This document shows positions 45,152-49,249 of a stretch of DNA of 54,216 bases, piece after piece. A program made the translations under genes and the position numbers. The notes under the pieces were generated by a model that was not told the origin of the DNA, searched no databases, and saw only the letters and a program-made list of their open reading frames with translations. The first letter of the stretch is position 1, and each line of letters opens with the position of its first letter. Source of the DNA: Planctomycetes bacterium GWF2_41_51 (lineage in GTDB: Bacteria > Planctomycetota > Phycisphaerae > Sedimentisphaerales > UBA12454). Location of the stretch: assembly GCA_001825665.1 (NCBI GenBank), contig MHXZ01000010.1:1-54216 (forward strand). Direction: 5' to 3'.

Positions 45152-45199
45152 CATTCCTACTTCGCTAAGATACGAAGGACGCTTACTGTCGCGGCTCTG
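45152..45199. repeat. Dispersed repeat copy at the lnt 3' end
   Basis: CATTCCTACTTCGCTAAG, then TACGAAGGAC and CTGTCGCGGCTCTG, the same unit as at 40226-40276. Its right edge includes the last codons of lnt, so the repeat may have supplied the gene's terminal residues. Confidence 0.5.
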
Positions 45200-46826
45200 A
45201 TTTATATATCGACATGGCGGCCGATAAAATCAAACATATTGCACAACTTATCGGCAATAATTGCCAGCTTTTGCTGAAAACCGTTACTCTTTTATCTATT
45301 TTAACATTGTCAACGAACCATCCTGCCTGTCCTGTTCTTAGAGCAGCTTTTTCATTCAAAGTTCCGGAAATAAAACCATCTTTAATATTTCCAACGGAAT
45401 CTACCACACAGCTAATTCCTGTGTTGGCGCAGCGAACTATCCAAACGCGGTTTTCAATAGCCCTGAAAACAGAAATCGCCATGTGCTGAGTCAATTCTGA
45501 GCTTGCCTTGATTTTATTATCTGTTTTTTTCACGAACCATCCATCATTACTGATATTCACAAGCCAGTCGGCCTGTTTGATTCCATCTTCGGCGACAAGT
45601 TTTCTGCAAACCGCCGGCACTGTATCCTCGAAACAAATCGAAGCGGCAAACCTGTATGTTTTATCACCGACAGGCATTTTGAAAATCTTGTACTCTTCTC
45701 CCTTGTCGAGAGTGTAATCGTAATCGTAGGGAGTCATCGCGAGAAGCAGCTTGTAGAGGAATGGGAGTTCCTTTTTCAAAGGCATGTATTCGCCAAACGG
45801 CACAAGACGAATTTTATTGTAATACTGCCGGGCAAACGGCTGGTTTGGTTCGTACAGAAATGCGGTATTATATCTGCTCTTTAATTTGACTTTATCGTTT
45901 ACTATTTCTGCATCTCCGGCGAAGGCGCCGACAAGGACATAAACTCCTTCGCTCGCATGATAAACAAGTTCGCCGTTGATTATTTTGGATGCGTATCCAT
46001 CCGGCATGAGCTTTAAATATCGTTCATCGAGAACCGTTTCAACCATTGTCTCCGGCCAGATAATCAGTGCAGGGCTTTCTTTGTCAAAAGCAGCCACGCT
46101 TAAATTTAACTGGTCGATAAATATCTTTTCAAACGGTACGGTATCTTCGCCTGCTTTAACAGGTACATTCGATTGCACGACCCCGATTTTAGGGCCGTCT
46201 TCAGAGTATTCAGCCGTTTGATTAATTCGGTATCTGCCGTAAGAAATTGTCGCCGCTATTATAATCAATGTTATTGAAGCACCGACAATAATATTAACTC
46301 TATGCTTCTCTTTTCGGCTGAGGATTATTTGAGCGATTAAGCCATTGGCCATTGCGACAACAAAACTTACTCCGGCAGTTCCGAAAGTGTCTGCAATTTG
46401 AATAAGGGCTATGTTGTCGAATTGACTATGCGCCAGAAATCGCCAGCCGAAAAGCCAGCCCTGCAATGTTTCCTGGCCGACAATTAGAATTGGAAGCGAA
46501 AACCATAATGGGATTTTTCTTTCAGTACAGAAACGCAGCGCAATTACGATTATCGGCCAGTATATTGCAATGTACAGACAAGCCGCAATCCAGCCTGCGA
46601 TAGTAATCGGCATCAGCCAGTAAAGATTGCCGAGCCAATAGATAATCCCAATTACATACGCTGCTAAAACAGTCCGCCATTTTTTTTCATTCGATAAACT
46701 GCCGAACACGAACGGCACAAACGCAAACCACGCCAGAAAAGATAGATTGTATGGCTGCTGGATCAATGTCAATAAGATGGCGGATAATGCAAAATAGGCT
46801 AACAAAAATATTATTTTTTTATTCAC
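45183..46826 (-). CDS. lnt: Apolipoprotein N-acyltransferase Lnt
   Basis: A 547-residue inner-membrane enzyme that adds the third acyl chain to lipoproteins. Six or more hydrophobic helices (1-200) come before a nitrilase domain with the catalytic triad: Glu in IIWPETM, Lys in YNKIRLVPFGEY and Cys in ASICFEDTVP. A last helix is near the C-terminus (LLPISCAICLILSAAMSIY). Lnt implies a Gram-negative-type envelope with triacylated lipoproteins. It lies 23 bp after the methyltransferase gene on the same strand. Confidence 0.94.
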   Translation of the reverse strand: MNKKIIFLLAYFALSAILLTLIQQPYNLSFLAWFAFVPFVFGSLSNEKKWRTVLAAYVIGIIYWLGNLYWLMPITIAGWIAACLYIAIYWPIIVIALRFCTERKIPLWFSLPILIVGQETLQGWLFGWRFLAHSQFDNIALIQIADTFGTAGVSFVVAMANGLIAQIILSRKEKHRVNIIVGASITLIIIAATISYGRYRINQTAEYSEDGPKIGVVQSNVPVKAGEDTVPFEKIFIDQLNLSVAAFDKESPALIIWPETMVETVLDERYLKLMPDGYASKIINGELVYHASEGVYVLVGAFAGDAEIVNDKVKLKSRYNTAFLYEPNQPFARQYYNKIRLVPFGEYMPLKKELPFLYKLLLAMTPYDYDYTLDKGEEYKIFKMPVGDKTYRFAASICFEDTVPAVCRKLVAEDGIKQADWLVNISNDGWFVKKTDNKIKASSELTQHMAISVFRAIENRVWIVRCANTGISCVVDSVGNIKDGFISGTLNEKAALRTGQAGWFVDNVKIDKRVTVFSKSWQLLPISCAICLILSAAMSIYKSEPRQ

Positions 46827-46849: not shown

Positions 46850-47890
46850 TTAGCTTGCTTTGATAGTTTGGGGTTTTTCTCCGTGAAGAGCGCCTAATTT
46901 TCCGCTTTTACGTAATTGTTTTAATCTCTTTTTGATCTCTATTTGATTAACTATATTGGATTTATTTCCTATATAATTATTAAACATTTCAGTGAAACGG
47001 GTAAGCAAATAATAATGATCGTCAAGTTGATCGGTGGGAATTTTGTTTTCATGATATAATTGTTTAAGTTCAGTGTCTAATTGCTTTGTCCACTTAATAG
47101 GAGATTCACCCTCAATAGCCGATTTACCAAATTCCTTAATACGTTTTCTTGATTCTGCAGCATATTCAGAAGAAAGCTCAATACCTGTATAATGGCGATC
47201 TAATTTTGAAGATACGACCGCAGTAGTTCCGGATCCACTAAAAGGATCCAGTACCCAGCCTTTTTCCATCGAACTTACTCTTATTATCCGAGCTAAAAGG
47301 CGTTCGGGCATTTGGCAGGGGTGCCAGCCCTGACGTTCCTTGAATGTTCCGCATACTCTCGGAAAGCTATCCCACACATCATCTGGCATAAAGCTATCCC
47401 ACACATCATCTGGCATTTTACCAGCAGGGTTTGCTCTTTTGTCGTTATAGATAAGTTGTCTATCGGAAGGAGTCCTGACTGCGTCATCGTTGAAAGTGAA
47501 ATTCTTTTTGTCTTTGACGAAATAAAATATGTGCGTGTGTGAACGTGCGAATTTATCTTTTGTCTGCTGGCCGAAAGTATAATGCCAGATAATCCAATTT
47601 CGCATAAATAAACCGAGTGCGTCAGCGATGATTTTTACATTGGCCGCGTAATCGTCGCCGATAGCGATATAGAATGAGCCGGTCGGCTTTAGAACATTAC
47701 AGCAGGCGATCATCCATTTTCTTGTCCAGTCGATGTAATGTTCTTTTTCTTTCTTGTCGTGGTACTTATCATATTTATAGCCGATGTTGAAAGGGGGGTC
47801 GGCGAAAATCAAATCCGCAAATGGGCTTCTCACTTGGTTGAGCACCTTTATACAATCGTCACAAATTATTTTGTCCTGAAAATCCTGCAT
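46850..47890 (-). CDS. Beta-class DNA methyltransferase with extra C-terminal tail
   Basis: A 346-residue site-specific methyltransferase. DPPF (31-34, in FADPPFNIGYKYD) comes before the SAM-binding motif LDPFSGSGTTAV (about 212-223), the order of the beta class; DPPF suggests N6-adenine methylation. A perfect 27-bp tandem duplication (47363-47416) doubles the residues MPDDVWDSF near 158-176, at or beside the usual target-contact region. The C-terminal 75 residues (from about 268) form a helical tail ending IKKRLKQLRKSGKLGAL that resembles the tail of the TIR protein at 48431. It is divergent from the TIR genes (104 bp). Confidence 0.9.
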   Translation of the reverse strand: MQDFQDKIICDDCIKVLNQVRSPFADLIFADPPFNIGYKYDKYHDKKEKEHYIDWTRKWMIACCNVLKPTGSFYIAIGDDYAANVKIIADALGLFMRNWIIWHYTFGQQTKDKFARSHTHIFYFVKDKKNFTFNDDAVRTPSDRQLIYNDKRANPAGKMPDDVWDSFMPDDVWDSFPRVCGTFKERQGWHPCQMPERLLARIIRVSSMEKGWVLDPFSGSGTTAVVSSKLDRHYTGIELSSEYAAESRKRIKEFGKSAIEGESPIKWTKQLDTELKQLYHENKIPTDQLDDHYYLLTRFTEMFNNYIGNKSNIVNQIEIKKRLKQLRKSGKLGALHGEKPQTIKAS

Positions 47891-47959
47891 AATGGTATAT
47901 TACGGATTAAAGTGAAATTTGCAAGTGGATAAGGAGTTACGTAATATTCTTTTTTTAAC

Positions 47960-47987
47960 TTGTCTTTCTTAAAAGACGGATTAAAAT
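47960..47987 (+). promoter_or_regulatory. Candidate promoter of the TIR gene pair
   Basis: TTGTCT (47960-47965) and TAAAAT (47982-47987), 16 bp apart, lie so close to the ATG at 47995 that transcription would start at or next to the start codon. No Shine-Dalgarno is visible, so the message may be leaderless. Confidence 0.4.
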
Positions 47988-47994
47988 ATTATCA

Positions 47995-48444
47995 ATGGCT
48001 AAAATAGTGGAGAAAAAAATAAGGAAGTTGCCCGAAACTCGAAAATTTGGTTATCAAATTTTTGTGAGCCATGCAACTGCTGACAAATGGATAGCTAAAG
48101 TTATTTGTAATAAAATTGAGGAAAAAGGTGCTTTAACGTTCATAGATGACCGGGATATTCATGGCGGCGATGATATTCCTGAAGAAATCCACAAACAGAT
48201 TAAACGCTCTCGAGAATTGGTTGTTTTACTGACACCTACATCATATAATCGCGATTGGGTACGATTAGAAGTAGGCGCGGCTTGGGCATGGAAAAAAAGG
48301 ATTGTGGCTATTCTTTGCCATGTTGGCATTGACCTGATTCCAGAAATAATAAAATCTAAGAAAGCCATAAGTATTAATGAAATTGATAATTATTTAAATG
48401 AAATTTCTACAAGAGTAAACAAAACCAAAAATGTCAAAAAATAA
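47995..48444 (+). CDS. TIR-domain protein (first of a pair)
   Basis: A 149-residue protein that is essentially one TIR domain: YQIFVSHATADKWIAKVI (20-37, first strand and A-helix), FIDDRDIHGGDDIPEEIHKQ (49-68, BB-loop region), RELVVLLTPTSYNRDWVR (strand D) and E92 in RLEVGAAWAWKKRIVAIL, at the position of the catalytic Glu of NAD-cleaving TIRs. There is no C-terminal sensor domain. Its end overlaps the next TIR gene by 14 bp. Bacterial TIR proteins act in anti-phage defence as NADases or signal-molecule producers; activity here is inferred. Confidence 0.85.
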   Translation: MAKIVEKKIRKLPETRKFGYQIFVSHATADKWIAKVICNKIEEKGALTFIDDRDIHGGDDIPEEIHKQIKRSRELVVLLTPTSYNRDWVRLEVGAAWAWKKRIVAILCHVGIDLIPEIIKSKKAISINEIDNYLNEISTRVNKTKNVKK

Positions 48445-49027
48445 AAAAACATATGATGTCTTTCTGAGTTATCCAAATGGATTAAAAACTCAGGCTGTTG
48501 CCATAATCAAGAAATTTGAAGATGCCAAGCTCGTTGTCTTTGATAGTTCTGATATTAAACTAGGTAAGAATATAGTGGAAGAAACTTGGCAAGCTTTGGC
48601 AGTAAGCTGGGCAATTGTTACAATAGTCGAACCCGGAAATATGCCTCCATCTGTTGCAGTAGAAATTGGAGCTGCATCCGCTTGGCAAAAACCTATATAT
48701 TTTATTCTTACTGAAGCTAAAGGCAAATATGATATGCCTGTATATTTTTCAAAATATGAAGTATTTAGGATTTCCGAAATTGAAAAGGTTATCAAACTAA
48801 TATTGAGGGGTTTGAATCCTTTGAGTAACGATCAAAAAGAGGCCTTAGTAAGAGCTTACTTGAAGTTGCGGATACCAACAGATAAATTACTTATGGAGCC
48901 GGGTTATATAGAGCAATTAAAGAAAATGCTTCAACATGAAGCAAACATAAATATATCGGGAGAAAGACTAATGCAAGAATTGCTCCGATTACGGAAAAGC
49001 GGGAAATTAGCGAAAATTCGTAATTAA
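48431..49027 (+). CDS. TIR-like protein with methyltransferase-type C-terminal tail
   Basis: A 198-residue protein. Residues 6-120 form a second, diverged TIR domain: YDVFLSYPNG, VVFDSSDIKLGKNIVEETW and E78 in VAVEIGAASAWQKPIYFIL, parallel to the E92 block of the upstream protein. Residues 130-198 are a helical tail with RIPTDKL and LRLRKSGKLAKI, mirroring KIPTDQL and LKQLRKSGKLGAL of the methyltransferase at 46850. The shared tail suggests that both recognise the same partner or DNA. It overlaps the first TIR gene by 14 bp. No Shine-Dalgarno is visible. Confidence 0.82.
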   Translation: MSKNKKTYDVFLSYPNGLKTQAVAIIKKFEDAKLVVFDSSDIKLGKNIVEETWQALAVSWAIVTIVEPGNMPPSVAVEIGAASAWQKPIYFILTEAKGKYDMPVYFSKYEVFRISEIEKVIKLILRGLNPLSNDQKEALVRAYLKLRIPTDKLLMEPGYIEQLKKMLQHEANINISGERLMQELLRLRKSGKLAKIRN

Positions 49028-49177: not shown

Positions 49178-49249
49178 GCGGGTGTAGCTCAGTGGTAGAG
49201 CGTCACGTTGCCAACGTGAATGTCGTGAGTTCGACCCTCATCACCCGCT
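49178..49249 (+). tRNA. tRNA-Gly(GCC)
   Basis: A complete 72-base cloverleaf. The acceptor GCGGGTG pairs with CACCCGC, the D-arm contains AGCTCAGTGGTAGAGC, the anticodon arm is CACGT-TGCCAA-CGTG (anticodon GCC) and the T-arm has GTGAGTTCGACCCTCAT. CCA is not encoded. It is close in sequence to the broken tRNA-Gly(UCC) at 1976-2021. Confidence 0.95.

Follow-up and report, generated by a model that had tools for sequence, protein, structure and literature searches.

The stretch of planctomycete DNA analysed here, referred to as the window, is a 54 kb contig (G000:C10) from a genome of 4.83 Mb in 138 contigs. It harbors the gene for a predicted DNA methyltransferase (MTase), which stands head-to-head with the gene for a TIR-domain protein (TIR1), whose reading frame in turn shares 14 bp with that of a second such protein (TIR2). 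This three-gene unit sits between the gene for apolipoprotein N-acyltransferase (Lnt) and a tRNA-Gly/trigger-factor block. The unit and its flanks comprise the following features:

45183..46826, minus strand: apolipoprotein N-acyltransferase (Lnt), which in relatives is resident beside the MTase
46850..47890, minus strand: beta-class DNA methyltransferase (MTase), 346 aa, with DPPF followed by DPFSGSGTT, a YhdJ/CcrM-like catalytic domain and a helical C-terminal domain
46883..47095, minus strand: MTase C-terminal domain (CTD), which has homologues in the C-terminus of TIR2 and in mini-CTD proteins that stand alone
47363..47416, minus strand: tandem duplication within the MTase (27 bp, two copies), perfect and in frame, encoding MPDDVWDSF twice
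47891..47994, no strand: 104-bp intergenic region from which MTase and TIR1 diverge, with presumed promoters
47995..48444, plus strand: TIR1, a TIR protein of one domain that has HATAD and DWVRLE (E92) and is a predicted NADase effector
48431..49027, plus strand: TIR2, a divergent TIR (E78) fused to a CTD; predicted sensor/adaptor or second effector
48818..49024, plus strand: CTD of TIR2, with helices at residues 133-146, 150-155, 157-171 and 177-189
49178..49249, plus strand: tRNA-Gly(gcc), resident flank of a variable slot, beside trigger factor also in three congeners

The layout given in the original prediction, which had described these genes as a possible new defence module, proved exact in its coordinates, strands and 14-bp overlap when re-checked. 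The two TIR genes are GC-poor (0.345 vs 0.40).

By its sequence, the MTase is a beta-class enzyme of the N6-adenine type, with predicted activity. It matches the Pfam family N6_N4_Mtase (E = 3.1e-56) and the PADLOC family MTase_II (8.9e-66), that is, the methyltransferases of the type II group, while its best NCBIfam match is the YhdJ model PRK11524 (5e-52, below the cut-off of that model). Its nearest solved relatives are M.BceJIV, RsrI, MboIIA and CcrM, the last three of which are also found among the fold matches of its structural model, and the beta-class assignment of the original prediction is thereby borne out. No gene for a cognate restriction endonuclease lies beside it; the flanks encode Lnt, a HEAT-repeat protein, TIR1, TIR2 and trigger factor, and no nuclease family. 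The enzyme shares its motif order and catalytic domain with CcrM, YhdJ and RsrI, and it also carries an extra domain after the catalytic one. In CcrM, this additional C-terminal domain binds DNA (PMC6787082). The CcrM domain has a SAND-like beta fold, however, whereas that of the window MTase is predicted to be all-helical and is common to TIR2. The AlphaFold model of the whole MTase is poor (pLDDT 49), with a moderately confident CTD portion in which helices span residues 269-282, 293-307 and 316-328; the homologous residues 133-189 of TIR2 are likewise all-helical in the model of that protein. The motif MPDDVWDSF, present once in relatives of the MTase, occurs twice in the window enzyme. The underlying 27-bp duplication, located at a site where homologues from Planctomycetaceae carry insertions, is either very recent or an assembly artefact. 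Neither this duplication nor the CTD common to MTase and TIR2 was mentioned in the original prediction.

TIR1 is a clear TIR protein (Pfam TIR_2, E = 9e-18). It also matches ThsB_TIR (3.9e-10) and thus resembles the ThsB-type TIRs of Thoeris, but no ThsA gene adjoins it, and the TIRs of the window are paired and come with a CTD. Its DWxxxE motif aligns with DWTNYE of AbTir, with PdTIR included in the alignment, and its HATAD fits the pattern Hx[ST]xD, which is found in other bacterial TIRs as well, such as AbTir. Its DWxxxE contains the Trp-x-x-x-Glu that active TIRs of bacteria have, and TIR1 is predicted to be an NADase effector. TIR2 is more divergent. On its own, it remains below the Pfam threshold (TIR_2, 22.2 bits vs a cut-off of 28), which three of its relatives exceed (L012, 29.9 bits; L016, 41.3 bits; L014, 60.5 bits). 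Its AlphaFold model (pLDDT 83.6) matches TIR domains, including those of SARM1 and SPARTA, at Z-scores of 14.5-15.4, and nucleoside deoxyribosyltransferases match nearly as well, so that the modelled fold is a TIR/deoxyribosyltransferase fold. The glutamate that the original prediction had pointed out in both proteins is invariant among the sequences aligned (E92 in 5/5 TIR1, E78 in 8/8 TIR2); the tryptophan preceding the catalytic glutamate is not kept in TIR2.

MTase and TIR2 are related through their C-termini. A BLASTP comparison aligns the two proteins across both of these regions (E = 4e-4), and the C-terminal domain of the MTase has a homologue in the last ~65 residues of TIR2. We built an HMM from nine TIR2 C-termini and searched it against the 4641 ORFs of the loci. 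The best match after the TIR2 proteins was a short ORF beside the MTase of a relative, G142 (5e-9), followed by the window MTase (3e-3) and then by other MTase tails. In profile-profile comparisons, the TIR2 CTD matched three sets of MTase tails with 94-96% probability, compared with at most 5.4% for 180 column-shuffled controls. With its ATG start, the short ORF of G142 gives a protein of 72 residues that consists of the CTD alone. Genes for such mini-CTD proteins, which have a single domain of 70-77 aa and are basic and helical, directly follow the MTase in four relatives (G142, G399, G409 and G410), among them a member of the same genus as the window organism (G399). An HMM of these four proteins retrieves the window MTase at 3e-12 and the TIR2 proteins from 9e-12. 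In the models of TIR2 and MTase, the CTD consists of three main helices each, with similar spacing. The domain has no name in Pfam or NCBIfam and no PDB relative by sequence profile; in Foldseek and VIA, matches to the TIR or MTase domain took up the lists. A Myb/SANT- or homeodomain-like fold was considered for it from a reading by eye and from HTH family matches, all of them below threshold, and is not claimed here.

Given these profile homologies among TIR2, MTase and mini-CTD proteins, TIR2 combines a TIR with a domain that is found in other loci as a separate neighbour of the MTase. It looks like a TIR fused to an MTase partner protein, the stand-alone mini-CTD being presumably such a partner. 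The association of TIR and MTase in the original prediction, which had been drawn from gene order, is strengthened accordingly, the shared domain being a closer link between TIR2 and the MTase than their adjacency. The CTD need not be specific to MTases, since small planctomycete proteins with no relation to MTases contain it too. Among the MTases, those with a full-length CTD have a domain-bearing partner next to them in 6/7 cases and those with a truncated CTD in 0/15 (Fisher 9e-5, uncorrected for phylogeny); the seventh full-length enzyme adjoins a GHKL ATPase instead. As the seven, which include the window MTase, may form one clade (60/78 support), this pattern possibly reflects a single event, and we do not treat it as a separate line of evidence.

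Several further arrangements of the domain came to light. The two-gene unit of MTase and 70-77-aa mini-CTD, found at L039:2519-2737, L128, L129 and L126, is apparently undescribed. Many MTases of the same subfamily from Planctomycetaceae (L009:4852-6567, L024, L067, L070-L076) have two tandem CTD-related units, followed by a weak or degenerate GIY-YIG-like C-terminus (Pfam GIY-YIG, 1e-6 to 0.14 in the three that were scanned). Small proteins with tandem CTDs are encoded at L096, L097, L099 and L108, at L096 sharing an open frame with an argininosuccinate-lyase-like protein.

To date, the TIR pair is rare and known to us from Planctomycetota only: a scan of ~85,000 genomes with a TIR2 alignment yielded seven loci, and the inclusion of whole-genome searches brought the number of distinct loci to nine, all from this phylum. 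TIR1 lies directly before TIR2 in 9/9 loci, and the five loci in which neither frame is broken show an overlap of 4-14 bp. This pairing is not an artefact of the search, because a TIR1-based search of 392 genomes gave strong matches solely in the four genomes that also have TIR2. Searches of viral contigs found no relatives of TIR1 or TIR2, and no TIR2 was found in phages and plasmids. As a separate observation, locus L122 (G088) contains a cluster of tandem TIR-like genes, two of which overlap by 4 bp, without a CTD.

A member of the MTase subfamily adjoins the pair in 3/9 loci, namely in the window, L012 and L009. In L012, the MTase stands head-to-head with TIR1-TIR2 as it does in the window, and the two regions have these three genes in common and none of the eight other neighbours tested (16.6 kb). 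In L009, MTase, TIR1 and TIR2 run in one direction, each gene overlapping the next. By the original prediction, the idea would fall if homologues of the TIR pair never occurred near this MTase in other genomes; L012 and L009 have both. In the MTase tree, the L009 enzyme groups with those of Planctomycetaceae and the enzymes of the window and L012 fall into a group on the Phycisphaerae side. Since the adjacent MTases thus belong to two clades, there were at least two events in which the pairing of MTase and TIRs either arose or was transferred. The expected recurrence of the three-gene neighbourhood is seen, with two MTase clades on the one hand and 6/9 TIR-pair loci without an adjacent MTase on the other. 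Four of these six genomes encode a 52-57% identical subfamily MTase elsewhere, which lacks the CTD extension in 3/4 cases, and in 2 of the 9 TIR-pair genomes no subfamily MTase was found (MAG gaps are possible). Overall, the subfamily is present in 7/9 TIR-pair genomes and, by our own count of genomes above about 180 bits, in 59/392 of the phylum (binomial 5e-5, without phylogenetic correction). This co-occurrence in trans supports a connection only weakly, because subfamily MTases are widespread across the phylum in the absence of TIRs.

The chromosomal setting allows for a different view. Within the genus, a block of trigger factor, tRNA-Gly, X, MTase, Lnt, HEAT and MreB is kept, in which X varies. 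In the window, X is TIR1-TIR2. Congener G400, which has no TIRs, carries an AP2/HNH gene and a GHKL ATPase in its place (PADLOC MzaB-like, 9e-13; L145:5003-7761, directly before the MTase), congener G398 a pair resembling a HEPN-MNT toxin-antitoxin system (L150:5218-5900, by sequence pattern only) and G399 an FGE-like gene (by eye). With its flanks conserved and X variable, the MTase appears to be resident, and its companions to exchange. This variation fits modular effectors, and the main rival of a coupled module, in which a chance cargo occupies a hot spot, builds on it as well. According to this rival, the MTase would be a resident orphan of the YhdJ/CcrM type in a slot between tRNA-Gly/trigger factor and Lnt, the TIR pair an unrelated defence cargo and the CTD a common planctomycete module. 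The other contents of the slot, its lack of anything TIR-like in further relatives, the MTase-Lnt synteny of relatives without TIRs, the six TIR pairs without a neighbouring MTase and the CTD in unrelated small proteins are all in line with it. The unit is, however, kept head-to-head in L012 outside the Lnt context, the genes of L009 form an overlapping run, and profile searches place the MTase-adjacent mini-CTDs and the MTase CTDs nearest to the CTD of TIR2. On balance, we consider independent cargo unlikely. The original prediction fares less well here, both because the MTase has long occupied the slot in relatives lacking TIRs, which counts against the module as it was first conceived, and because the surroundings are not those of a classical defence island, with Lnt, MreB, trigger factor and ClpP as neighbours in the window.

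If the genes do act together, their coupling could also lie in protein contact rather than in methylation. The MTase might hold TIR2/TIR1 inactive through contacts between the CTDs, similar to an antitoxin, or scaffold them, so that loss or titration of the MTase and not the methylation state would free the TIRs. Such a guard would fit with the homology between domains of the partner proteins and with the separate mini-CTD encoded next to the MTase. The state of TIR1 is suggestive at most: it is disrupted at L010, L015, L016 and L018, by a nonsense codon, 5' loss, internal loss or frameshifts, while TIR2 is open, and none of these loci has an MTase adjoining the pair (4/6 loci without an adjacent MTase vs 0/3 with one; p = 0.17, not significant). 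The frameshifts in loci from MAGs may be sequencing errors, and we do not conclude that TIR1 decays where the MTase is not adjacent. The missing CTD extension in 3/4 unlinked MTases, an intact TIR1 at L013, where no subfamily MTase was found, and the fact that no complex was predicted speak against contact-based control, which we regard as distinctly unlikely.

Even less probable, and indeed very improbable in our view, is a transcriptional role, in which the CTD would bind DNA and regulate like a controller protein, expression from the promoter between the divergent MTase and TIR genes would be tuned by mini-CTD and TIR2, and another trigger would act on the TIRs. Controller proteins of restriction-modification (R-M) systems are about the size of the basic, helical mini-CTDs found beside MTases, and the window and L012 have the divergent layout in common. 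However, the genes of L009 all run in one direction, without a divergent promoter, the MTase itself bears the CTD, and no HTH family matched the domain above threshold.

The reading we tentatively prefer, although we place it somewhat below an even chance, is that of an MTase-coupled TIR module akin to R-M, in which cell suicide replaces cutting, as in abortive infection. The homology of the CTDs, the 9/9 pairing of TIR1 and TIR2, the linkage in L012 and L009, the low GC content of the TIR genes and the GHKL ATPase beside the same MTase in G400 favor it; the six TIR pairs without an adjacent MTase and the unlinked MTases without a CTD extension stand against it. In such a module, the MTase would methylate its target in host DNA, as expected from its family, and TIR2 would read the same DNA via the CTD that it shares with the MTase, or contact the MTase on DNA. 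On encountering sites that lack methylation, or in the absence of the MTase, as with incoming phage DNA, TIR2 would assemble with TIR1, a step suggested by the constant pairing of the TIRs and their overlapping genes. TIR1, with its canonical DWxxxE, would then consume NAD+ or make a signal, as other members of its family do, and the cell would stop. From domain logic, we infer DNA binding by the CTD and the gating of the TIRs by methylation, with absence of methylation or of the MTase as the trigger; the loss of NAD is what the TIR family leads one to expect. A stricter version is a full R-M analogue with the TIR as restriction enzyme: TIR2, which would have originated by fusion of a TIR with a stand-alone MTase partner, reads sites via the MTase's small domain, methylation marks self, and unmethylated sites lead to NAD+ consumption by TIR1/TIR2. 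We deem this version somewhat unlikely.

Should the coupling be real, methylation-based marking of self and non-self would feed straight into a TIR suicide enzyme, with no nuclease involved, and the effector would have borrowed the partner domain of the modification enzyme itself. The locus makes the question of whether methylation state can gate a TIR testable, and the ~65-residue helical CTD provides a sequence handle for finding further MTase-linked effectors in Planctomycetota.

TIR domains have been predicted before in R-M neighbourhoods with MORC/paraMORC GHKL ATPases, where the TIR is a C-terminal extension of paraMORC4 or a stand-alone neighbour gene, and Hx[ST]xD was described as a motif of these TIRs (Iyer et al., 2008; PMC2292703). 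The window unit resembles these operons in linking TIRs to R-M-type genes including a DNA methylase, in the HATAD of TIR1 and in the GHKL ATPase that a congener has beside the same MTase. It differs from them in having no GHKL ATPase, helicase or nuclease, no GHKL gene being found among the window neighbours, and in having two TIRs, one of which carries the domain of the MTase. SPARTA (TIR-APAZ/pAgo), whose TIR matches the TIR2 model at Z = 14.9, is, as proposed for the window unit, a TIR gated by nucleic acid, but the window unit has neither pAgo nor APAZ, and its link to DNA would be the CTD. PrrC, an anticodon nuclease held by the type I complex EcoprrI, is an R-M-linked suicide effector. 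As proposed here, a modification enzyme is coupled to a suicide effector in that system, whereas the effectors of the window unit are TIRs and restriction subunits are missing. We thus place the unit with the R-M-linked suicide effectors, as a new form of a general idea that is already known. No description of a methyltransferase-double-TIR unit or of the shared CTD was found in the literature searched (openly licensed papers), and the novelty suggested in the original prediction would apply to this combination, the occurrence of TIRs in R-M neighbourhoods having been predicted in 2008.

Elsewhere in the window, two overlapping ORFs in different frames (42-1048) resemble one split IS256-type transposase, and a long co-directional run (3408-27990) resembles a polysaccharide export/glycosyltransferase cluster, both as judged by eye.
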